From Streptomyces soli (lineage in GTDB: Bacteria > Actinomycetota > Actinomycetes > Streptomycetales > Streptomycetaceae): a stretch of 64,000 nucleotides of DNA. A model generated the notes under the pieces. It made no database searches and was not told the DNA's origin. It was given only the letters and a program-made list of their open reading frames with translations. Positions 1,154 to 20,081 of this stretch are shown piece after piece (within the stretch, counting starts at the first letter, position 1; each line of letters starts with the position of its first letter). The stretch is from the NCBI RefSeq assembly GCF_003999195.1, contig NZ_RJVR01000285.1:1-64000 (forward strand), written 5' to 3'. A program made the translations under genes and the position numbers.

Positions 1154-1525
1154 TGGGGAGCTCCCCGAGGAACGTCCGGGCTCCACAGGGCAGGGTGGTG
1201 GCTAACGGCCACCCGGGGTGACCCGCGGGACAGTGCCACAGAAAGCAAACCGCCGGGGACCTCGGTCCTCGGTAAGGGTGAAACGGTGGTGTAAGAGACC
1301 ACCAGTGCCTGGGGTGATTCAGGCAGCTAGGTAAACCCCACCCGGAGCAAGGTCAAGAGGGAGCACCTCGGTGCTCCTGCGCGGACGATCGAGGGCTGCC
1401 CGCCCGAGTCCGCGGGTAAACCGCACGAGGCCGGTGGCAACACCGGCCCTAGATGGATGGCCGTCGCCCCGGCTCCCGCGAGGGAACCGGGGAACAGAAC
1501 CCGGCGTACAGCCCGACTCGTCTGC
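1114..1525 (+). ncRNA. rnpB: RNase P RNA, bacterial class A
   Basis: Catalytic RNA of ribonuclease P, which removes the 5' leader from precursor tRNAs. The universally conserved P4-side element is present at about 1163-1190 (GAGGAACGTCCGGGCTCC), followed by the ACAGAAA/CAAACCGCC core near 1236-1253. The 3' element (ACAGAACCCGGCGTACAG) lies at about 1494-1511. The ends pair as helix P1: bases 1114-1128 match 1511-1525 with two mismatches. The length of about 410 nt is normal for actinomycetes. It is a single-copy housekeeping gene, so it marks chromosomal DNA at the left edge of the biosynthetic cluster. Confidence 0.93.
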
Positions 1526-1526
1526 C

Positions 1527-1547
1527 GCCCGCATCGCCGCTGCGGGC
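1527..1547 (+). terminator. Hairpin after rnpB
   Basis: GCCCGCA (1527-1533) pairs perfectly with TGCGGGC (1541-1547) around a 7-nt loop, immediately after the P1 helix of rnpB. No T-tract follows, as is usual in Streptomyces. It probably ends or trims the RNase P transcript. Confidence 0.5.
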
Positions 1548-1606
1548 GATGACCTCACCGGGATCTCCACTGCTGAGTGAAGAGATCGTGGACGTACGGT
1601 AAGGCA

Positions 1607-1632
1607 GAATACGTACCTACCGGTTTTCTTCT
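1607..1632. promoter_or_regulatory. ARE-like operator upstream of the HAD-SDR pair
   Basis: AT-rich element whose core (ACCTACCGGTTTTCTTCTCA) matches 18 of 20 positions of the element in front of the afsA homologue at about 7207-7226. Such elements bind ArpA/ScbR-type butyrolactone receptors. It lies about 190 bp upstream of the HAD gene. The shared operator suggests common control of this operon and the butyrolactone synthase. Confidence 0.6.
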
Positions 1633-1824
1633 CAGCCAAGGCCAGGTCAAAGTACGTTAAAAAGCTCGGAGTCCGGCATTCCGAATATGGGGAAATGGTG
1701 ATGCGTCTTGCGGCTGCTCCCATGATTCTCGAAGGCTTGGCCAAGCAGCCGTCGCAGCAGCGATATCGCTCCTGAAGATGTTCGTCCACTCCCCGAGTCC
1801 GCCGAGCAGAACGAAAGAGGGGGG

Positions 1825-2580
1825 ATGGACGTGTCCACCGCCTTGAAGCACCTGCGTCTCGCGGCCGTCAACATCGACGGCGTCCTGCTCAACGACACCT
1901 TCAGTCCGGTGATCCGCGAGATGGTGATCGACCACGGCGGCGACTACACCTCCGAGGTCGAGTACGCACTCTTCTCCCAGCCGCAACTCGCCGCCGCCGC
2001 AGTCTTCGCCGAGGTGACGAAGACGGAAGTGACTCCTCGTCAACTGGTGGCCGACTACCTCGCCCGGCGGGAAGAGTACGTGGCACGACATCCGGTGCGT
2101 GTCCTCGACGGCGCGGGCGATCTGCTGCGGCTCCTGCGCCGCCTGGGCCTCCAGGTGGTGTGTTACGGCGGTTTGGACCGATCCCATTTCGACCGCCACC
2201 TCGACGAGTTCACCGACCTCTTCGACCCTCCCGGCTACGTGTGCACGGACGGCTTTCGCCCGGGCATCCACGAAATCATCCGCGACGTCTTCGGACTCGA
2301 GTACGACAGAGCGGTCTTCATCGACGACGTGGCGAAGGTGGCCGAGGTCGCTCGGTCCCTGGGAGTGCCGTTCATCGGGCATCCCAACACCGAGGCCCAG
2401 TACCAGCGGAGCCTCATGACCCGGGCGGGCGTACGGCACGTGGTCCGCGCCCTGAGCGACATCGACGAGGACCTCCTGCGAACCCTGGACCACGAGGCGT
2501 CGACCGGCGTCGTGTGGGACACCACCGAGTCCCCCGCACACGCCGGGACGCGACAGGAAGGAGTGAGCAATGAGCGATGA
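1825..2580 (+). CDS. HAD-superfamily protein, probably butyrolactone-pathway associated
   Basis: 251 aa with a haloacid-dehalogenase fold. Motif I is at residues 16-18 and motif IV is FIDD at about residue 165. Motif I reads N-I-D-G where phosphatases of this superfamily have D-x-D-G, so the usual aspartate nucleophile is Asn16. The protein may be a non-phosphatase HAD or a degenerate enzyme. It starts at an ATG directly after a G-rich ribosome site and overlaps the following SDR by 11 bp, so the two are translated as a pair. An ARE-like operator nearly identical to that of the afsA homologue stands upstream. I infer a role in making or modifying the butyrolactone signal; HAD phosphatase activity is known in such pathways, but the Asn makes the reaction uncertain. 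Confidence 0.75.
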   Translation: MDVSTALKHLRLAAVNIDGVLLNDTFSPVIREMVIDHGGDYTSEVEYALFSQPQLAAAAVFAEVTKTEVTPRQLVADYLARREEYVARHPVRVLDGAGDLLRLLRRLGLQVVCYGGLDRSHFDRHLDEFTDLFDPPGYVCTDGFRPGIHEIIRDVFGLEYDRAVFIDDVAKVAEVARSLGVPFIGHPNTEAQYQRSLMTRAGVRHVVRALSDIDEDLLRTLDHEASTGVVWDTTESPAHAGTRQEGVSNER

Positions 2581-3340
2581 ACGGGGGCCGTTGGCCGGGA
2601 AGATCATCCTCATCACGGGAGCCAGCAGCGGCATCGGCGCAGCGGCGGCCCGCGTCTTTACCCGGCAGGGAGCCGGCGTGGTCCTCGCGGCACGCCGCGA
2701 AGCCCGCCTGCGCGACCTCGTGGACGAGCTGCGGGACATGGGCGCCACGGCAAGCTTCTTCACCGCCGATGTCTCCGACCCCGCCGACGCCCGGGCGATG
2801 GTCGAATGCGCGGTCTCACGGCACGGCAGGCTGGACGCCGCCTTCAACAACGCGGGCACAGGTATCGAGAAGACCCCGCTGCACCTCACCGACGACGAGG
2901 CCTACAAGCGGGTCATGGACGTCAACGTGACCGGTGTCTGGAACTGTCTGCGACATGAGATCACGGCCATGCTGCCGACCGGGGGCGGCTCCATCGTCAA
3001 TACCAGCAGTGTCGGGGGACTCGTCGCCACGTCGGTCGCGGCCCCGTACATCGCCTCGAAGCACGCCGTCGTCGGGCTGACCAAAGCCGCCGCCGTCGAG
3101 TACGCGGAGCACGGGATCCGGGTCAACGCGATTGCTCCGGGCCTGACACGCTCCGAGCTGGTGGACCAATGGTTCACGCTGCACCCCGAGGCCGAGCAGA
3201 GAGCCTTCCGCTCCGCTCCGCAGCAACGTGCGGCGGAACCCGAGGAGGTGGCTGAGGCAGCGGCGTGGCTGTGCAGCGACCGGGCCTCGTTCGTCACCGG
3301 ATCCTGCCTCGCTGTGGACGGCGGGCGAACCGCTTGGTAG
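2570..3340 (+). CDS. Short-chain dehydrogenase/reductase
   Basis: 256-aa classical SDR. It has the NAD(P)-binding GASSGIG motif near residue 18, NNAG near residue 90, and a catalytic Ser...Tyr-x3-Lys set (YIASK) near residues 160-164. The C-terminal half ends with the usual TGS..VDGG segment. The start overlaps the HAD gene (ATG inside its last codons), implying coupled translation. SDRs of this kind reduce the 6-keto group of A-factor-type butyrolactones in other streptomycetes. Given the shared operator with the afsA homologue, that is the likeliest job here, although a polyketide ketone could also be the substrate. Confidence 0.8.
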   Translation: MSDERGPLAGKIILITGASSGIGAAAARVFTRQGAGVVLAARREARLRDLVDELRDMGATASFFTADVSDPADARAMVECAVSRHGRLDAAFNNAGTGIEKTPLHLTDDEAYKRVMDVNVTGVWNCLRHEITAMLPTGGGSIVNTSSVGGLVATSVAAPYIASKHAVVGLTKAAAVEYAEHGIRVNAIAPGLTRSELVDQWFTLHPEAEQRAFRSAPQQRAAEPEEVAEAAAWLCSDRASFVTGSCLAVDGGRTAW

Positions 3341-3433
3341 AAGTTCCGTACTCCTGCGAGGCAGGCCGCGAATCCGCACGAACGGCACAAGGGTCGGTGG
3401 AAGATCCCGCCTCGGAGAGAGTAGTCGTGCGCT

Positions 3434-3460
3434 AAAGTACGTCCCATTCGGTTTTGTTCT
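3434..3460. promoter_or_regulatory. ARE-like operator before the first TetR gene
   Basis: AAAGTACGTCCCATTCGG followed by TTTTGTTCT resembles the ARE half-site pattern. It ends 16 bp before the TetR start, where autorepression sites of butyrolactone receptors are commonly found. Confidence 0.5.
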
Positions 3461-3476
3461 GTCTCTGGGGGGTTCC

Positions 3477-4142
3477 GTGGCTCAGCAGGAGCGCGGTCTA
3501 CGGACCCGCCGTGCCGTCCTCGAGGCAGCAGCGGCCGTCTTCGCCGAGCGCGGTTACGCGGCAGCCACGATCAATGAGATCCACAGCCGCGCCAACGTGA
3601 CCAAGGGCGCCCTGTACTTCCACTTCGATTCCAAGGCGGCCCTCGCCCAAGGCGTGCTCGAGGCGCAGATCAGCAGTGAGTACCACCTGCCCCGCGAACT
3701 CAAGCTGCAGGAATGGGTGGACGCGGGCCTGACGCTCGCCGCGCGGCTGCCGCGGGAACCTCTGCTCCTCGCCGGCGTCCGGCTCTCCGCGGACCTCCAG
3801 GGCCGTGATGTCTTCGGCAGTGCCTGGCCCGCCTGGACGGACCTCACGACGCAGTTCCTCTCCGAGGCCAAGGCGAGGGGCGAGGTCCTCCCGCACGTCG
3901 TGCCGGAAAGGACGGCCACGGTCTTCCTCGGTGCCTGGATCGGCGTCCAGTTCGTCTCGCAGGCCGCGTCCGACTGGGCCGATCTGAGCCTGCGCATGTC
4001 CGAGCTGTTCGACCACATCCTTCCGGCCATCACCGCCCCCGCCGTGCTGGTGCGGCTCGACACCGCCCCTGATCGGGGAGCCCGTGTCATGGCGGAGGCC
4101 AAGGCCTTGTCGGTGACGGCCGAAACCGGAGCCGACGTCTGA
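3477..4142 (+). CDS. TetR-family gamma-butyrolactone receptor
   Basis: 221 aa, the normal size for ArpA/ScbR receptors. The N-terminal TetR helix-turn-helix ends with the family hallmark TKGALYFHF at residues 42-50. The C-terminal ligand domain contains tryptophans (SAWPAWTDL) in the region where receptors of this type have the Trp needed for ligand binding. GTG at 3477 is chosen because it directly precedes the conserved AQQERG...TRR start. An ARE-like element overlaps its promoter region, which suggests autorepression. With the second TetR and an AfsA homologue nearby it probably senses the butyrolactone and releases the SARP genes. Confidence 0.85.
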   Translation: MAQQERGLRTRRAVLEAAAAVFAERGYAAATINEIHSRANVTKGALYFHFDSKAALAQGVLEAQISSEYHLPRELKLQEWVDAGLTLAARLPREPLLLAGVRLSADLQGRDVFGSAWPAWTDLTTQFLSEAKARGEVLPHVVPERTATVFLGAWIGVQFVSQAASDWADLSLRMSELFDHILPAITAPAVLVRLDTAPDRGARVMAEAKALSVTAETGADV

Positions 4143-4282
4143 CGTCTCCCCGTGGCGGGAGTACGACGCACGGCCGACGGTTTGTTTTCAACGCGCGCTG
4201 ATTGAGCCGAAGCGCCACGCGGGTCCCTCCGTATCCCCTCCATCTCTGTTCAATCCCCTGTCCAGTTTCACTGAAGCACTTT

Positions 4283-4308
4283 CAAAACCGTCGCAACGGT
4301 TTGCTAAC
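4283..4308. promoter_or_regulatory. ARE-like operator before the second TetR gene
   Basis: Nearly palindromic element: AAAACCGT and ACGGTTTGC flank a CGCA centre. It lies about 85 bp upstream of the second TetR start. It belongs to the AAACCG..CGGTTTG subgroup also found at 4981, 5149 and 7515. Confidence 0.6.
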
Positions 4309-4390
4309 TTGGCCGCGAGCAGCAGGTGAGCTGAGGGGTGGACGAGGTGGTCGCGCCGGCCGTCGTCGTCAGATGTCAGTGGAGGCTTGG

Positions 4391-4981
4391 ATGACCAAGC
4401 AGGAACGGGCGATCCAGACCCGGGAAGCATTGCGGCAGGCCGCAGCGGAGATCTTCACGCGAGAGGGCTTTCCACGCGCCTCGCTTCCCTCGATCAGTCA
4501 TGCGGCCGGGGTGAGCAAGGGGGCCCTCTACTTTCACTTCCACAGCAAGGACGACCTCGCCACGGCGATAGAGGAAGAGGCCGAGGCGCGGGTGGAACTC
4601 ATCCTGCAGCGCCTTCAGGCGCGGGAAGGGGTGACCTCACTGCAAACCGTCGTCGACGCCACCTACGCCCTCATGAAGAGCGTCGCGACCGACGCCGTCG
4701 TGCGCGCGGGCTTCCGGCTGGGCACGGAGGTCGCCCGGGAGAGCAGTGTCGATCTGTGGGGGCGTTGGCAGGCGTGGGTGCACGCCATGTTGTCGCGGGC
4801 CGAGGAATCGGCCGAGCTCGCGCCCGGAGTCTCGCGGAGTGCGGCGGGCGCGGTGATCGTGATCGCGGTGGCCGGAATGGAAGTGCTCGCGTCGAAGAAT
4901 GCGGAGTGGATGACTCCGGAACACCTGAACCTGCTCTGGGAGGTGCTGCTGCCTCAGCTAGAAGCATGTCCAGTCGCATGA
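4391..4981 (+). CDS. TetR-family regulator, ArpA-like (receptor or pseudo-receptor)
   Basis: 196 aa. The DNA-binding helix-turn-helix carries the butyrolactone-receptor signature SKGALYFHFHSK at about residues 39-50, close to that of the TetR 250 bp upstream. ATG 4391 is preferred because GGAGG lies five bases before it; an in-frame ATG at 4373 is possible. Paired receptor genes are common in such clusters. One usually binds the butyrolactone, and the other (a pseudo-receptor) binds no butyrolactone or binds the antibiotic. Which of the two this is cannot be read from sequence. It is flanked by ARE-like sites upstream (4283) and downstream (4981), the latter facing the SARP gene. Confidence 0.85.
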   Translation: MTKQERAIQTREALRQAAAEIFTREGFPRASLPSISHAAGVSKGALYFHFHSKDDLATAIEEEAEARVELILQRLQAREGVTSLQTVVDATYALMKSVATDAVVRAGFRLGTEVARESSVDLWGRWQAWVHAMLSRAEESAELAPGVSRSAAGAVIVIAVAGMEVLASKNAEWMTPEHLNLLWEVLLPQLEACPVA

Positions 4982-5005
4982 GAAACCCATCCGTTTGGTT
5001 TTTAA
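4981..5005. promoter_or_regulatory. ARE-like operator between TetR2 and SARP1 (distal)
   Basis: AGAAACCCATCCGTTTGG followed by TTTTTAA overlaps the stop codon of the second TetR and lies about 235 bp upstream of the SARP start. It matches the AAACCG/CGTTTGGTTTTT pattern of the other elements. Confidence 0.5.
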
Positions 5006-5148
5006 TGGTGCGGCAAATTAATCTATGCCAAGTCATTGCCGCGGGTCTGCGTCCTCAATCGCATGGGGGTTTCCTCCGCATTTAGGTAGGTCAGTGGCAT
5101 GACCCGCCTGGTTCCGCCCGGAGAATGCGGCCTCCGTGATCTTCCGTT

Positions 5149-5176
5149 GACAAACCGTCCGCAATGTTTTTTAATG
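5149..5176. promoter_or_regulatory. ARE-like operator before SARP1 (proximal)
   Basis: GACAAACCGTCCGCAATG followed by TTTTTTAATG lies 63 bp upstream of the SARP start, a position that would block its promoter. With the element at 4981 it suggests receptor control of this activator. Confidence 0.55.
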
Positions 5177-5238
5177 AGCCGGTCACTGGGGACCCGTGGT
5201 TCAACGGGTGACCGCATAGCCGGCAGCGACAGGGGGAC

Positions 5239-6078
5239 ATGGCGGTGCACATAGGAATATTGGGGACATTGGCGGTATCGGTGAACGGGGTCTCGATCAC
5301 GCCAACCGCACCCAAAGCGCGGCAGGTTCTCGCCCTCCTGGCCGTGCGTGCGGACCAAGTGGTTCCCGTGGACGCGTTGATCGAGGAGCTGTGGGACGCG
5401 GGCCCCCCGCGAAGCGCCCGGACCACGGTCCAGACGTACGTCCTTCAACTCCGCGAGCTGATCACGACAGCGCTGGAGAAGTCGGGGGAGGGTGAGGGGC
5501 CCACCGCCAAGGACGTCCTGATGACCCTCCCGGGCGGTTACCTCCTTCACAGCGGCGACGGCACCAGCGACATCCGTGAGTTCGAGCGACTGTCCGAGGT
5601 GGGGTACAGGGCCATGGAGGCCGGTGACTTCACGGAGGCGGCACGGTACCTGCGGGAAGCGCTCGCTCTGTGGAGCGGTCCCGCACTCGTCGACGTGCAG
5701 GCCGGCAAGCAGCTGGAGACCGAGATCAAGCGGCTGGAAGAAACGCGGCTGTGTGCGCTGGACCAGCGCATCGAGGCCGAACTGCGCCTGGGGCAGCACC
5801 GGTCCCTGCTCGCCGAACTGACCGTGTTGATCAGGCGCTACCCCACCCACGAGACGCTCTGCGGCCAGTACATGCTGGCCCTGCACCGATCCGGCCGCCG
5901 GGGTGAGGCGCTCGACGCCTATCAGCGGTTGCGCAACACCCTGGTGCGGAGCAAGGGGCTGGAGCCCTCCGCCTGGCTGCGGAAACTGCAGCGCTCCATC
6001 CTGTCGGCCGGCGAGAACGGCAACCAGGCGGTGCCTGCCGAGGAGCGCAAGGGTTTCCGGCTCAGCACGGCCTGCTAG
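5239..6078 (+). CDS. SARP-family transcriptional activator (1)
   Basis: 279-aa Streptomyces antibiotic regulatory protein. Residues about 1-100 form the OmpR-type winged-helix DNA-binding domain. The rest is the bacterial transcriptional activation domain of helical repeats (for example LSEVGYRAMEAGDF and the ALDAYQRLRNTLV region). The size matches ActII-ORF4/RedD-type activators without an ATPase domain. ATG 5239 follows an AGGGGG ribosome site. I see no TTA codon, so no direct bldA dependence. SARPs bind heptamer direct repeats spaced about 11 bp, and such repeats occur before several operons here. Two ARE-like elements stand upstream. Confidence 0.93.
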   Translation: MAVHIGILGTLAVSVNGVSITPTAPKARQVLALLAVRADQVVPVDALIEELWDAGPPRSARTTVQTYVLQLRELITTALEKSGEGEGPTAKDVLMTLPGGYLLHSGDGTSDIREFERLSEVGYRAMEAGDFTEAARYLREALALWSGPALVDVQAGKQLETEIKRLEETRLCALDQRIEAELRLGQHRSLLAELTVLIRRYPTHETLCGQYMLALHRSGRRGEALDAYQRLRNTLVRSKGLEPSAWLRKLQRSILSAGENGNQAVPAEERKGFRLSTAC

Positions 6079-6122
6079 ATCGTTGAAGACCTCGGCGCCC
6101 GGGCGTCGAGCGAGCGGCCCGT

Positions 6123-6155
6123 GGCCCCTGCCGGATGATGCTGCCGGCAGGGGCC
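6123..6155. terminator. Bidirectional terminator between SARP1 and the afsA homologue
   Basis: GGCCCCTGCCGG (6123-6134) pairs perfectly with CCGGCAGGGGCC (6144-6155) around a 9-nt loop, between two convergent genes. Confidence 0.75.
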
Positions 6156-6211
6156 TCTGCTGTCCCCGCGTCCCGCCGAGGGGGCGCGGGGGCCGTGCCG
6201 GGATGCCCGGC

Positions 6212-7153
6212 TCACGCGCAGTGGAGCGGGCCGGTCAGCAGGGACGTGAAGACCTGCCGACCGTCCTGATGCCCCGTCACCTCGATGGCTGCCAGGTCCG
6301 GTTCCTGTGATTCGGCGGGTGTCGCCTCGATGACGCACGCCTCGTCGAACTCCGCGTAGCGGTGGAACACGGTGGAGATCGCGGAGGGCGTGATCGTGTA
6401 CGGGCGCATGAGCCCGCACGCGGCCTGCCGGGCCGCCTCCAGGAGGACCATCCCCGGGTAGTGGTCCCCCTCGTGGTCGAACAGGACCGGATGGTCCGGA
6501 TCCGGCTCCAGCAGCCAGCGGTTGGGCTGCCCGGTGGGCGAGAGCACCACGTCCTCCGGCCGGTCGCGTCCAACGGTGGCCGGTGGCATCGTGGCGCGCG
6601 GCAGGCCACGCCGGCCGCTCAGGGCGCAGCCGAGGCGATCGCCGCGCAGCCGCCGGTAGACGGCGGCCGAGATGCAGGTGAACCGGCCGCCGCCGACGGC
6701 GACAACGGTGCCGCCGCGCCGTATGGACAGCTCCATGCGGAACCCGGTGGCCCTGCCACCCCGCAGGGTGACGTCCGTGCACACGGCGCTCAGCTCGATG
6801 TCGGTGGGAGTGGAGCCGATGTGCAGCTGATCGGGCTCGGTGCTGAACCAGAGGTCCGACATGACGAAGTGATGCCCCAGCGGTACTCCCAGTTCGGCGT
6901 GGGCCAGGAACAGGCCGGCCTGGCGGAACGTCTCGGCGGTCAGCAGCGGGTCGTGACGGCTGCCGTCCGCGGCCCGGAAGAAGGTGTGCGCCCGCGGCCA
7001 CTGGCCGAAGAGCGAGAAGTGGCCCTCGCTCTGCCTCGTGCACCTGGTGAGGAACACCTCGGCCAGGCTCGCGCGGTGGACGTACTCCTTCGGCACCGTG
7101 GTGGTCAGCCCGGAAACGTCAGGTGCCGGAACATGGGTATGCAGCGAAGCCAT
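6212..7153 (-). CDS. AfsA-type gamma-butyrolactone synthase
   Basis: 313 aa, with two A-factor biosynthesis hotdog repeats. The first begins near residue 20 with VPKEYVHRASLAEVFLT and the second covers about residues 180-300. AfsA joins a beta-ketoacyl group from ACP to dihydroxyacetone phosphate, the first committed step to A-factor-type signals. The ATG is preceded by GGGGGATCGAG. An ARE-like operator lies about 50 bp upstream, so the synthase is probably under receptor control. The neighbouring HAD and SDR genes share that operator type and may supply later steps. Confidence 0.92.
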   Translation of the reverse strand: MASLHTHVPAPDVSGLTTTVPKEYVHRASLAEVFLTRCTRQSEGHFSLFGQWPRAHTFFRAADGSRHDPLLTAETFRQAGLFLAHAELGVPLGHHFVMSDLWFSTEPDQLHIGSTPTDIELSAVCTDVTLRGGRATGFRMELSIRRGGTVVAVGGGRFTCISAAVYRRLRGDRLGCALSGRRGLPRATMPPATVGRDRPEDVVLSPTGQPNRWLLEPDPDHPVLFDHEGDHYPGMVLLEAARQAACGLMRPYTITPSAISTVFHRYAEFDEACVIEATPAESQEPDLAAIEVTGHQDGRQVFTSLLTGPLHCA

Positions 7154-7195
7154 CTCGATCCCCCGTTGAGTGCGCTGAATGCGTGTCCGAACGCA

Positions 7196-7223
7196 TAAGT
7201 TACGGACCTACCGGTTTGGTTCT
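7196..7223. promoter_or_regulatory. ARE-like operator before the afsA homologue
   Basis: The core ACCTACCGGTTTGGTTCTCA differs at only two positions from the element before the HAD gene at 1614-1633. It sits about 45 bp upstream of the afsA-like start. Confidence 0.65.
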
Positions 7224-7514
7224 CAATTGCGGCCTGGCAAAGGAACGGTCAAGCGTTCGGATTCCGTGGTCCGTATGCGGCGCCTCGGGCGGCACGGCTC
7301 CGGCATCGGGTGATGTCGGCCGACGGGCAGCGAAAGGCCCCCTTTCCGCTGGGTTCACGGGAAGCCGATCGTGTGAAGTGCGCGCCGCTCCGGCCCAGTT
7401 GGCCGGGAGGATGCGCCGGTCGCCGGGGATCTTCCCGGGGCCGATGGGGAACCGGTGGCCGGCCGGTCACCCGTGTTGCATGGAATCCCGGGGGCGAAGG
7501 CGTCGATCGACAGC

Positions 7515-7543
7515 GTTAAAAACCGCATGGTTCGTTTGTAATG
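7515..7543. promoter_or_regulatory. ARE-like operator upstream of SARP2
   Basis: TTAAAAACCGCATGG followed by TTCGTTTGTAATG is a near-palindromic AAAACCG/GGTTCGTTT element about 370 bp before the second SARP gene. Confidence 0.55.
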
Positions 7544-7911
7544 AGGTTTTCACTTGCCACCGCGGTGAGAAATTCGACGACCGCCTCGGCGGAGGCGGGT
7601 GGAATGGGGGTGGACATTCAGGTACCGGGGCCCTGGAGCGCGAGAGAAGAAGGAGCGCTCGTCGATTCGAGTCGCGGAAGGTGTCCGCCGTGCCGGGGCC
7701 CGTGCGCCGGGGGGCGGCGCTCCCCGGCCGGCGGCGTCGCTCGCGGGACGCTATACCGCCACCCTGCCGCCGTTCTGAAGCGGCCGGAAGTCCGCTTGAC
7801 GAGGGCTCAAGGAACCGCGCGTGGCCGATCCCCGGCCGTTACGGTGCAGCAGTACACCCGCTCCTCGAACACATGCTCGGGGAGAAGTAGACGCGAAGGG
7901 GGATCGGATAC

Positions 7912-8733
7912 ATGAGGATTCAGATACTGGGTCCACTCAGTGCCGAGATCGGTGGGGTGCCGATCGCGCCGACAGCGAGCAAACCGCGACAGATCCTGGC
8001 GCTGCTCGCGCTGTACCCGGGCCGTGTGATGCCCGTACCGACCCTGATGGAGGAGATCTGGGGCGGCGAATCACCGGTCAGTGCCCTGACCACCTTGCAG
8101 ACCTACATCCTTCAGCTGCGCCGGCGGCTCGGCACGGCCATGGGGCCCGACTCCCCGCGCAACGCCAAGGACGTCCTGGCCACTCGGCACGGGGGATACG
8201 TGCTGCAGATCCCGCCCGAGAGCGTCGACGTGCACGCCTACGAGCAGCTCGTGGCCGCGGGGCGTGCGGCGTTCGAGGCCGGTGACGACGCGCGCGCGGC
8301 GGAAACGCTCCGCCGGGCGCTGGACCTCTGGCAGGGTCCGGCCCTGGTCGACGTACGCGTCGGATCGTTGCTGTCCATCGAGACCGTCCGCCTGGAGGAG
8401 AGCAGGCTCGGCGTGCTGGAACGGCGGATCGACGCGGAACTGCGCCTGGGCAGGCACACGGAACTGATCGCCGAACTCAGGGACCTCATCGCGCGCCACC
8501 CCCAGCACGAGGGGCTGCATTCGCAGGCCATGCTGGCGCTGTACCGGTCGGGCCGGCAGGCCGCGGCGCTCGACGTCTACCGGAAGCTGCGCGTACGGCT
8601 CATCGAGGAACTCGGCGTGGAACCGTCGCCTCAACTGCAGCGCCTGCACCAGGCCATGCTGAGCGTGGACCCCGCCCTGGACGTCGCCGCAGGCCCTCGC
8701 CGGGCCTCGACCTTCGACCTCTACACGACCTGA
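7912..8733 (+). CDS. SARP-family transcriptional activator (2)
   Basis: 273 aa, closely similar to the first SARP in layout: winged-helix DNA-binding domain (about residues 1-100, beginning MRIQILGPLSAE) and a bacterial transcriptional activation domain (about 105-250). No ATPase or tetratricopeptide extension is present. The start follows AAGGGGGAT. No TTA codon is seen. It stands directly before the thioesterase-ACP operon, with a heptamer repeat in the intervening gap. Two SARPs in one cluster may act in sequence or on different operons. Confidence 0.93.
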   Translation: MRIQILGPLSAEIGGVPIAPTASKPRQILALLALYPGRVMPVPTLMEEIWGGESPVSALTTLQTYILQLRRRLGTAMGPDSPRNAKDVLATRHGGYVLQIPPESVDVHAYEQLVAAGRAAFEAGDDARAAETLRRALDLWQGPALVDVRVGSLLSIETVRLEESRLGVLERRIDAELRLGRHTELIAELRDLIARHPQHEGLHSQAMLALYRSGRQAAALDVYRKLRVRLIEELGVEPSPQLQRLHQAMLSVDPALDVAAGPRRASTFDLYTT

Positions 8734-8744
8734 CTCCGTCCGTC

Positions 8745-8773
8745 GTCGTGACTGCTTCGAGCCCGCCTCTAGC
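8745..8773 (+). promoter_or_regulatory. SARP-type heptamer repeats before the thioesterase operon
   Basis: GTCGTGA, TTCGAGC and CTCTAGC begin at 8745, 8756 and 8767, exactly 11 bp apart, about 55-80 bp upstream of the thioesterase start. The last two units fit the TCGAGC-type SARP consensus best. Confidence 0.5.
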
Positions 8774-8827
8774 ACCGTCGGCAAGGCTGATGGGGCCCGC
8801 TGAACCAGGGCCGAGGAGGGGGCGGAC

Positions 8828-9565
8828 ATGGCGGACAGAGCGGCACCCGTACGGCTGTACTGCTTCGCGCACGCAGGAGCCGGAGTCTCCGCCTTCCGCG
8901 GGTGGGCGCGCCCGCTGGGTCCCAGCGTCGAGACGGTGCCCGTGCTGCTGCCGGGCAGGGAGAGCCGACGGCGTGAACCGCGTCTGACGGACCGGACGGC
9001 ACTCGTCGCCGATCTGCTGGAACGCGTCAGGCCCGAGCCGGACCAGATGTACGTCCTGTACGGGCACAGCCTGGGCGCCATGGTGGCCCACACCCTCACC
9101 CAGGCCCTCCGGGAACGGGGCCTCCCGCTCCCCGCCCTGCTGGCCGTCGGCGCTTGCCCGCCGCCGGACCAGGCCAGCGATCTGTCCGACAACCACACCG
9201 TCGACGCCACGTTGACGGACCGGCTCCGCACCATGGGGGCCGTGCCCGACGGCGCGGTGCCGGGCGACTACTGGCACCGGGCGTTGCTGCCCGTGCTGCG
9301 CGACGATCTGCGCCTGGCGCACGCGCTGCGCGTGGCGGCCCGCCGCACCGCGGCACTCGACGGCCGGGTGCCGGTGCCACTGCTCGCGGTCTCCGGCAAC
9401 CGCGACCCGCTGGCCCCGCCTTCCGTGGTCGACGGCTGGCGCCGATGGAACGCCGGTCCGGTGGTGACGCGCACCGTCGCCGGCGACCACTTCTTCGTAC
9501 GGGACGACGCGCTGCCCCGCCTTCTGGGTCGTGCGATCCGTGTCGTACGGCGCCTTGCCGCGTGA
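8828..9565 (+). CDS. Type II (editing) thioesterase
   Basis: 245-aa alpha/beta hydrolase of the RifR/TEII family. It has an oxyanion-region stretch (LYCFAHAGAGVSAF) near residue 10, the nucleophile motif GHSLGA near residue 80, and a C-terminal catalytic His in GDHFFV near residue 220. Such enzymes remove misprimed acyl groups from carrier proteins. Here it is first in the operon that carries the ACP. Release of a full-length aromatic chain by this enzyme is possible but less usual in type II systems. Confidence 0.9.
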   Translation: MADRAAPVRLYCFAHAGAGVSAFRGWARPLGPSVETVPVLLPGRESRRREPRLTDRTALVADLLERVRPEPDQMYVLYGHSLGAMVAHTLTQALRERGLPLPALLAVGACPPPDQASDLSDNHTVDATLTDRLRTMGAVPDGAVPGDYWHRALLPVLRDDLRLAHALRVAARRTAALDGRVPVPLLAVSGNRDPLAPPSVVDGWRRWNAGPVVTRTVAGDHFFVRDDALPRLLGRAIRVVRRLAA

Positions 9566-18827: not shown

Positions 18828-20081
18828 ATGACCGACACACTCGACACGCCGCCGAAGACGCTGGAGGACGGGAACGAGGACGCTCCCGCCTACCCGATCA
18901 AGCGCGGCTGCCCGTACCAGATGCCGCCCGGGTACGAGCAGCTGCGCGAGAAGGGGCCGATCTCCAGGGTCACCCTCTGGAACGGCCGGGTCGTCTGGCT
19001 GGTGACCGGCAACGAGCTCGGCCGCAAGCTGTTCCCGGACGCCCGGCTCTCCTCGGACGTCCTGGACCCGAACTTCCCGCTGCTCGCCCCGCGGATCGAG
19101 GCGCAGCGCCAGCAGGCCGCCGCGCCCCCGCTGGTCGGGGTCGACGACCCGGTGCACGCCCGCCAGCGCCGCATGGTGCTGCCCAGCTTCGGCGTCCGGC
19201 AGATCAACGCCCTGCGCCCGGTGATCCAGCGGTACGCCGACGAGCTCCTCGACACGATGCTGGCCAAGGAACCGGGCACGACAGTCGACCTGCTGACCGA
19301 GTACGCGCTGCCGATGCCGTCCGCCGTCATCTGCGAGCTGCTGGGCGTCCCCTATGAGGACCACCGCTACTTCGACGAGCGCTCCCGGCACGTGCTGTCC
19401 TCCTCCGGCCCCGAGCAGGCCGCGCAGGCGCAGCAGGCGTTCACCGAGATCCTCGCCTATCTGGACGACCTGATCAGCCGCAAGCAGGCCGAGCCGGGCG
19501 ACACACTGCTGGACGAGCTGATCGCGCGTCAGATGGAAGAGGGCAAGGTCGACCGGCAGGAGCTGGCGATGCTCGCCACCGTCCTGCTGGTCTCCGGGCA
19601 CGAGACCACGTCGAACATGATCGCGCTGTCCACGATGGCGCTGCTGGCTCACCCCGAGCAGCTGGAGGCGCTGCGCGCCGACGAGTCCCTGATGCCCCGG
19701 GCCGTGGACGAACTGATGCGATACGCCTCCATCGGCGACATGCTGATGCGGGTCGCCAAGGAGCCCATCGAGATCGAGGGGCACCTCATCAAGGCCGGTG
19801 ACGGGGTGATCCTGTCGACGATGCTGATGAACCGTGACCCGGAGTCCTTCGGCCGGCCCGACGACCTGGACATCTTCCGGCCGGCCGGCCGTCACGTCGG
19901 CTTCGGCTACGGCATCCACCAGTGCATCGGCCAGAACCTGGCCCGCGCCGAGATGGAGATCGCCCTCACCACCCTCTTCCGCCGCGTGCCCACGCTGCGG
20001 CTGGCGGTCCCCGCCGACCAGGTGCCCGTCAACGCGCCGTTCGTCCTGCAGGGAGTCTCCGAACTCCCCGTCACCTGGTAG
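18828..20081 (+). CDS. Cytochrome P450
   Basis: 417 aa. The oxygen-binding I-helix motif (SGHETTS) is near residue 260 and the haem-ligand loop FGYGIHQCIGQNLAR has the axial Cys at about residue 366. The size and sequence fit class I bacterial P450s (CYP105/107-like). A 3Fe-4S ferredoxin gene follows after 6 bp. It hydroxylates or couples rings of the aromatic product. Methylenedioxy-bridge formation by a P450 occurs in related xanthones, but nothing here proves it. Confidence 0.93.
   Translation: MTDTLDTPPKTLEDGNEDAPAYPIKRGCPYQMPPGYEQLREKGPISRVTLWNGRVVWLVTGNELGRKLFPDARLSSDVLDPNFPLLAPRIEAQRQQAAAPPLVGVDDPVHARQRRMVLPSFGVRQINALRPVIQRYADELLDTMLAKEPGTTVDLLTEYALPMPSAVICELLGVPYEDHRYFDERSRHVLSSSGPEQAAQAQQAFTEILAYLDDLISRKQAEPGDTLLDELIARQMEEGKVDRQELAMLATVLLVSGHETTSNMIALSTMALLAHPEQLEALRADESLMPRAVDELMRYASIGDMLMRVAKEPIEIEGHLIKAGDGVILSTMLMNRDPESFGRPDDLDIFRPAGRHVGFGYGIHQCIGQNLARAEMEIALTTLFRRVPTLRLAVPADQVPVNAPFVLQGVSELPVTW

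Follow-up and report, generated by a model that had tools for sequence, protein, structure and literature searches.

Seven ARE-like operators in a Streptomyces soli autoregulator block that probably derives from two degraded tandem modules

Which genes do seven operator-like elements packed into 6 kb of Streptomyces soli DNA serve, and how did they come to lie where they do? The elements, which resemble autoregulatory elements (AREs), stand at 1607, 3434, 4283, 4981, 5149, 7196 and 7515 of the stretch analysed here (the window), 64,000 nucleotides of contig NZ_RJVR01000285.1. A preliminary description placed them ahead of, or close to, genes coding for a HAD-family protein, two TetR regulators (TetR1 and TetR2), two SARP activators (SARP1 and SARP2) and an AfsA-like synthase, and read them as a complete butyrolactone circuit with every regulator under receptor control. 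Comparison with related loci makes it very probable, in our view, that the seven are operators of the one autoregulator circuit found in the genome, and that its layout derives from two related modules in tandem, each degraded.

In a common register of 30 bp, the elements occupy 1603-1632 (site 1607, forward strand, about 190 bp ahead of the HAD gene), 3431-3460 (3434, forward, tetR1 promoter), 4279-4308 (4283, forward, tetR2 promoter), 4978-5007 (4981, reverse, the distal SARP1 site, overlapping the tetR2 stop codon), 5146-5175 (5149, reverse, the proximal SARP1 site), 7194-7223 (7196, forward, promoter of the extant afsA) and 7514-7543 (7515, reverse, now facing SARP2). Scored in a leave-one-out manner by a log-odds matrix built from the other six, they reached 24.8, 21.9, 21.0, 20.8, 18.9, 25.9 and 22.4 bits, respectively, against background maxima of 8.1 to 12.1 bits; elsewhere in the window, 127,088 positions were scored and none equalled any site's leave-one-out score. 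As a control for the fitting of the alignment to all seven sites, we applied the same optimisation to 12 sets of seven AT-rich segments of the genome, whose lowest leave-one-out scores ranged from −2.5 to 9.0, compared to 19.6 for the real set. On a 400-kb sample of the genome, the seven-site matrix found one position at 16.7 bits, below all seven leave-one-out scores. A matrix made from 75 sites of related loci (see below) gave the seven 20.6 to 37.2 bits, and none of 798,840 positions of the same sample reached 10 bits with it (largest 8.5). Its next-best place in the window scored only 6.2 bits, and a further site among the window's biosynthetic genes was rejected on this ground. We also searched the whole 9.4-Mb genome (E ≤ 10, 150 of 842 first-look candidates scored) with a profile of 73 relatives' sites; two sites, one each from L016 and L053, were omitted from it as odd, while the matrix kept all 75. 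The profile recovered five places, all in the block (5148 reverse, 3433 forward, 7195 forward, 7517 reverse and 1606 forward), at weak E-values of 0.04 to 1.03, and did not recover 4283 and 4981. The relatives' sites had been chosen with the seven-site matrix, so that neither the matrix made from them nor the profile is wholly independent of the window. Taken over the full element of about 30 bp, the predicted enrichment of the motif at these sites, rather than its random occurrence, was borne out in the window and in the genome, and the seven elements are real.

To place the sites in a wider setting, we scanned a collection of named genomes for relatives of TetR1, which yielded 48 loci, and counted as relatives the 20 of 42 Streptomyces loci (L015 to L056) with an AfsA protein in the fetched stretch; several of the uncounted loci are short contigs or lone receptor genes. 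Scoring the 300 bp ahead of each gene at a threshold of 15 bits, and using gene matches of at least 40% identity, we found sites ahead of afsA in 20 of 20 loci, tetR1 in 20 of 20, 22 of 23 SARP1 copies and 12 of 20 tetR2 copies. The placement of operators ahead of these four genes in the preliminary description is therefore shared across the related loci. The distance from site to start codon of tetR1 is 46 to 49 bp in 16 of the 20 relatives. Over the 20 loci, 90 sites fell in 38.4 kb upstream of scored genes compared to five in 341 kb elsewhere, a contrast counted as independent of the window. The gene coding for an SDR-family reductase, an addition to the genes first named, had a site in 0 of 16 cases, and SARP2 in 0 of six. 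The HAD gene had one in four of 19 loci, each time the shared site of a divergent afsA, and in five more loci the afsA site lies 331 to 335 bp ahead of HAD. HAD is directly divergent from afsA in nine of 19 loci and shares its site at 266 to 335 bp, which makes transcription and control of HAD through site 1607 plausible, by analogy with these nine relatives. The claim of a HAD operator is plausible in this form, and not as a site of HAD's own, which the relatives lack.

A second SARP1 site of at least 15 bits is present ahead of eight of the 23 relatives' copies. The counterpart of 4981 in L015 scores 13.1 bits and lies 257 bp ahead of SARP1, compared to 261 bp in the window. The spacing between the two SARP1 sites is 168 bp in the window, 167 bp in L015, 215 to 226 bp in L043, L045, L048, L049 and L051, and 158 bp in L053; DNA looping between them was rejected, as this is no constant number of helical turns. 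In L016, L017, L038 and L053, two neighbouring ARE-like sites stand 27 bp apart ahead of SARP1. Both SrrA and SrrB of Streptomyces rochei are reported to bind the srrY promoter, with footprints of 28 bp and 58 bp, respectively (PMC7296167), and such a pair of sites would fit the longer one. L018 to L032 and others hold close TetR1 relatives (76 to 83% identity) and no afsA, HAD or SARP matches in the fetched stretches; an ARE-like site often lies close behind the gene and in some cases one lies ahead of it, and these proteins are possibly orphan receptors. The same-genus genome G029 has matches to HAD (57%), AfsA (41%) and the TetR proteins (34 to 40%).

Protein trees (coverage above 75% required, L056 left out) divided the block between two lineages. 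HAD and SDR grouped with L015 and L033 (support 98/96 and 99/95), and TetR1 (96/95), TetR2 (100/99) and SARP1 (100/100) with L015. The alternative grouping with L016 and L017 was rejected by the approximately unbiased (AU) test for HAD (p = 0.012), SDR (p = 0.015), TetR2 (p = 0.020) and SARP1 (p = 5e-39), values that are optimistic because the groups were named after the percent identities had been seen. AfsA, whose gene sits between the two SARP genes, grouped with L016 and L017 (97/90; window plus L015 rejected, p = 0.0045), as did SARP2. On these trees, the surviving synthase and the receptor group with different relatives. For the junction of SARP1 and afsA, the matches listed from 394 genomes sampled from the family were all shorter than 80 bp, this genome itself apart.

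Relict sequences beside the two outer sites point the same way. Next to site 1607, the segment 1530-1585 (reverse strand) aligns locally with the 5′ leader, including the ribosome-binding region, of afsA genes of the L015/L033 type (scores 29 and 30), scores reached by none of 300 shuffled sequences in which base pairs were shuffled as blocks. Against the leaders of L016, L017 and the window's own afsA it scored only 13, 12 and 13, which 254, 280 and 239 of 300 shuffles equalled or exceeded, and against 15 remaining loci between 24 and 289 of 300 shuffles scored as high. Moreover, window positions 1609-1637 match the afsA promoter of L015 at 28 of 29 bp. Site 1607, described earlier as an operator ahead of, or close to, HAD, does stand ahead of that gene, but the leader beside it is that of a lost afsA, and the site is best read from these alignments as the promoter element of this divergent gene. 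Next to site 7515, the segment 7545-7660 (forward strand) resembles the leader and about the first ten codons of SARP1 of L016 and L017 (local alignment scores 55 and 46, none of 300 shuffles as high). Its scores were 21 against L015 (9/300) and 24 against the window's own SARP1 (1/300), and 23, 21 and 19 against L034, L046 and SARP2 (7/300, 33/300 and 41/300). Further on, 7795-7903 (forward) is homologous to the spacer between SARP1 and SARP2 in L016 and L017 (blastn E = 1.9e-12 and 2.5e-17). Site 7515 itself aligns with SARP1 promoters, its −35-like part having drifted from TTGACA, and is best read, again from alignment, as the promoter element of a lost SARP gene of the L016/L017 type. For both modules, relict and trees point to the same lineage, which argues for the origin of 1607 from the lost afsA and of 7515 from the lost SARP gene. 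Together, the trees and the relicts indicate two related modules in tandem, each degraded. The claim that every regulator is under receptor control is thus not supported at SARP2: none of six copies in relatives has a site within 300 bp, and 7514-7543, which ends 368 bp ahead of SARP2, appears to belong to the lost gene. Transcription from 7515 may nevertheless run through the stub into SARP2, as a search of 1500-8900 for terminator-like sites gave none.

The circuit also lacks a gene that its nearest relatives possess, and its completeness, as first proposed, is not supported. A P450 of one family, the SrrO type, lies between divergent afsA and HAD in ten of the 19 loci holding both, and beside afsA in L056, which has no HAD; the other nine loci have afsA and HAD directly divergent, with 348 to 442 bp between the matched parts. 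The P450s of the loci that bear one (11 of 20, counting L015) are 62 to 77% identical to that of L015. All four nearest relatives (L015, L016, L017 and L033) carry it, and the window has no SrrO-type P450 beside its synthase. The best P450 of the genome is 41% identical to the L015 protein. The window's P450 at 18828-20081 was rejected as a moved SrrO (33 to 35% identity to the P450s of eight relatives), as was a P450 remnant within 1632-1824, where the best local scores, taken without shuffle comparison, were 16 to 20 against the stretches of five relatives.

Two half-site classes can be told apart among the sites. With each site oriented as the matrix chose, its bases 8-10 are TAC at 37 of the 40 proximal sites of afsA and tetR1 and at none of 36 proximal sites of SARP1 and tetR2 (33 AAC, 3 GAC), counts that come from related loci and not from independent events. 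Distal sites, kept outside this count, have AAC in four cases and TAC in one ahead of afsA, and AAC in eight and ACC in one ahead of SARP1. In the window, 1607, 3434 and 7196 belong to the TAC class and 4283, 4981, 5149 and 7515 to the AAC class. As read from the sequence, the difference appears to go with promoter-like hexamers. At tetR1 and afsA promoters the left half-site shares bases with a hexamer of the form TAnnnT (TAAGGT or TAAAGT; TATCTT as read on the opposite strand), and SARP1 promoters have a TTGACA-like hexamer at one end and a T-rich hexamer at the other, 17 bp apart; in site 5149 this core reads TTGACA-N17-TTTAAT. A strict promoter scan found none.

The genes of the block agree with an AfsA/ArpA-type autoregulator circuit related to the S. 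rochei butenolide (SRB) system, and the family names given to them in the preliminary description were upheld. They code for the HAD-family phosphatase-like protein at the position of SrrP (1825-2580, forward; PF00702, E = 2.5e-4, under the Pfam cut-off), the SDR-family reductase (2570-3340, forward; PF13561, E = 7.8e-64), TetR1, a probable autoregulator receptor like SrrA and AvaR1 (3477-4142, forward; NF041196, 200.9 bits, cut-off 150), TetR2 (4391-4981, forward; NF041196, 177.4 bits, cut-off 150), SARP1, which is SrrY-like (5239-6078, forward; PF03704 BTAD, E = 6.3e-43), the autoregulator synthase (6212-7153, reverse; NF041195, 361.7 bits, cut-off 200) and SARP2 (7912-8733, forward; PF03704 BTAD, E = 1.8e-48). 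One AfsA protein was found in the genome, in this block, and only TetR1 and TetR2 pass the ScbR-family cut-off among 87 matches at E ≤ 0.001, consistent with a single autoregulator circuit in the genome. TetR2 is probably a pseudo-receptor, judging from its family and position.

The SRB system of S. rochei (srrX, srrO, srrP, srrA, srrG, srrB and srrY) is alike in its synthase, HAD-type phosphatase, two ScbR-family proteins, SARP and related sites, and homologues of SrrX, SrrP, SrrA and SrrY are all present in the window. Its genes are numbered orf79 (srrB), orf81 (srrG), orf82 (srrA), orf83 (srrP), orf84 (srrO) and orf85 (srrX) (PMC7564063). By contrast, the window has afsA between the SARP genes, no P450, two relict sites, and a synthase and a receptor whose groupings differ. 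Streptomyces cellostaticus is reported to accumulate SRBs and to code for a SrrX homologue 86% identical to that of S. rochei (PMC12301235); L053 probably contains its gene, judging from species and homology. L053 has a layout like that of the Streptomyces griseofuscus plasmid locus (L055/L132), which comprises a ScbA/BarX-type synthase on the reverse strand, a cytochrome P450, a hypothetical protein at the HAD match and a ScbR-family receptor. Identities of the window's proteins to L053 and L055 are 55 to 57% for AfsA, 61 to 63% for HAD, 59 to 63% for TetR1 and 66 to 67% for SARP1, the SARP1 match in L053 being partial (166 aa, at the end of the stretch). In Streptomyces filipinensis, five AREs are described in the γ-butyrolactone cluster, where the receptor SfbR and the pseudo-receptor SfbR2 both bind (PMC7480387); gene content and order differ from the window. 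Among proteins of solved structure, TetR1 matches AvaR1 of Streptomyces avermitilis best (174 bits), but the signal of AvaR1, avenolide, is described as made with an acyl-CoA oxidase homologue and not AfsA (PMC12301235). Likened by description and not by sequence, the AlpZ/AlpW/AlpV system of kinamycin in Streptomyces ambofaciens has a receptor that represses SARP and pseudo-receptor genes and a pseudo-receptor for late shut-off (PMC7296167, PMC7343708).

We thus propose that, in the absence of signal, TetR1 would occupy the AREs overlapping the tetR1, tetR2, SARP1 and afsA promoters and keep them off. AfsA, SDR and HAD would make a butenolide or butyrolactone signal, whose binding would release TetR1, and SARP1, perhaps with SARP2 by read-through from 7515, would turn on the polyketide genes. 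TetR2 would build up and later shut the same four promoters again, a role like that of SrrB in S. rochei, where SrrA is reported to repress srrY and srrB, the signal to lift this repression, SrrB to shut srrY later, and SrrB itself to be released by SRB (PMC7296167). In S. rochei lacking SrrO, 6′-deoxo-SRBs are reported to be made, 100-fold more of which is needed for SrrA release, with normal antibiotic levels (PMC7564063); by analogy, the window's signal is predicted to lack the C-6′ keto group. AfsA sequence alone is stated not to tell the nature of the signal (PMC12301235). As for the history of the block, module 1 (HAD-SDR-TetR1-TetR2-SARP1, like L015/L033) would have lost afsA and the P450 and kept the afsA promoter as 1607, and module 2 (afsA to SARP2 and the thioesterase, like L016/L017) would have lost the interior between afsA and SARP2 save the SARP promoter and stub at 7515. 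The sites, their conservation, the protein groupings and the two relicts are features of the sequence; the order of evolutionary events is our reconstruction. Our literature searches on ARE sequences and on autoregulator modules rebuilt by recombination, judged on titles and abstract openings, listed no report of such a mosaic, and we do not claim that none exists.

Several observations weigh against two degraded tandem modules as the source of one working circuit. The afsA-leader relict is short, and its score of 23 against L036 also exceeded the largest null of 22 (0 of 300 shuffles). For TetR1, grouping with L016 and L017 was only just rejected (AU p = 0.047), and grouping of AfsA with L015 and L033 was not rejected at 0.05 (p = 0.06); support for SARP2 was modest (86/81) in a tree that includes SARP1-type paralogues for loci without SARP2. 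Nine of the 20 related loci also have no P450, so that its absence is not peculiar to this genome. SDR, a candidate counterpart of SrrG, has matches of only 32 to 33% in L053 and L055, on the opposite strand. TetR2 is acidic (isoelectric point 5.43), unlike most pseudo-receptors, but exceptions such as ScbR2 are reported (PMC7480387) and its charge does not exclude that role. Window position 1 is a contig end. One result counts against the sites themselves. The 18-nt consensus published for S. filipinensis (AAACVGNNBVNNCSGTTT) fails to set them apart: at up to three mismatches it touches all seven, yet has 78 matches in the window where 73 are expected, and genome-wide at up to one mismatch it has 20 matches, compared to 25 for a reversed control pattern. 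At up to two mismatches it has 11 window matches where six are expected and covers three of the seven sites, and site 4283 is its sole exact match in the genome. As the short consensus occurs at or near chance frequency, specificity requires the whole element of about 30 bp. Its chance frequency, and the overlap of the sites with promoter-like hexamers, whose richness in A and T is general in GC-rich genomes, would also suit AT-rich promoter cores that are alike by chance or bound by another factor; we find this hardly credible, given that AT-rich segments of the same genome gave no such scores by the same procedure and that conservation tracks the circuit genes. An artefact of assembly or contamination that joined two loci is very improbable as well. 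The genome is a draft of 412 contigs, and the window begins at a contig end and has a second RNase P RNA gene, but the assembly contains neither a second AfsA nor, beyond TetR1 and TetR2, any ScbR-family protein that passes the cut-off, so that unbroken partner copies were not seen. Listed completeness and contamination are 99.66 and 0.05, and degraded relicts at both joints are unlike the product of a misjoin.

More serious rivals concern what the outer sites do. A complete circuit of a single lineage, with a relocated afsA and all seven operators in active use, would explain the strong pattern kept at every site and the odd position of afsA, and nine relatives do have HAD beside an afsA-type site without a P450. 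It is nonetheless improbable, for the trees place afsA with other relatives than the left-hand genes, 1530-1585 resembles the leaders of L015 and L033 and not that of the window's own afsA, and the SARP stub after 7515 is of the L016/L017 type. Less easily dismissed, if still unlikely, is a working circuit of five operators in which 1607 and 7515 are dead relicts driving no gene: their original genes are gone, the −35-like part of 7515 has drifted, and SARP2 copies of the relatives have no site within 300 bp. Both sites still score above 22 bits, however, the search for terminator-like sites gave none from 7515 to SARP2, and nine relatives have an afsA-type site ahead of HAD much as 1607 is. 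In a bolder extension of the two-module history, which we hold only tentatively, recombination would have swapped signal and receptor, the synthase and the receptor coming from different branches and the P450 being gone, such that a 6′-deoxo-type butenolide, a changed signal, would be read by the receptor of the other branch. With it goes the possibility of a division of labour between two classes of operator, the synthase and receptor sites serving self-control and the sites of SARP and the second repressor serving output. The nine loci without a P450 led us to give less weight both to this swap and to the dead-relict alternative. Two tandem modules, each degraded and together forming the one circuit found in the genome, remain the account we favour.

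The block sits at the beginning of contig C7. Near the contig end, fragments of ABC transporter and EamA transporter genes occupy 147-1153, followed by the second RNase P RNA gene (rnpB), a left-edge neighbour outside the circuit (1119-1524, forward; RF00010, 280 bits, full length). The genome's other copy, on contig C31, scores better and stands beside genes that are YaaA-like and RNase-H-like, judging from their translations, as does the copy of G001; the two copies differ by about 17 to 19%. Compared with the best match in each of 34 other genomes of the genus, the window's rnpB is 83 to 88% identical in 27 and 79 to 81% in five. Its last 36 bp or so (1494-1529) recur away from rnpB, at 88 to 100% identity, in several genomes of the genus. 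In L147 and L148, the two scanned for neighbours of three fetched stretches (the third being L146), a gene of the phage integrase family ends no more than about 100 bp from the match. The rnpB tail looks like an integration site; none of the papers listed by a literature search on rnpB in this role has the word rnpB. The afsA relict starts a few bases past the window's rnpB. To the right of the block, a thioesterase gene (8828-9565, forward; PF00975, E = 2.1e-29) is the next gene towards an aromatic (type II) polyketide cluster at 8828-50134, which contains two ketosynthase-type genes, polyketide cyclases, several FAD monooxygenases, and asparagine-synthase-type, anthrone-oxygenase-type and deoxysugar genes.

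The block offers a compact case of a hormone-like antibiotic switch that was probably rebuilt by recombination. It bears on which operators stay in use after such an event, on whether a receptor accepts the signal of another lineage's synthase and on how a circuit fares without the P450, which oxidises the tail of the signal. The two operator classes, if true, could determine which promoters open first as the signal rises. The conserved 30-bp site provides a motif for finding such circuits, and TetR1 and TetR2 are deletion targets to try in waking the uncharacterised aromatic polyketide cluster.

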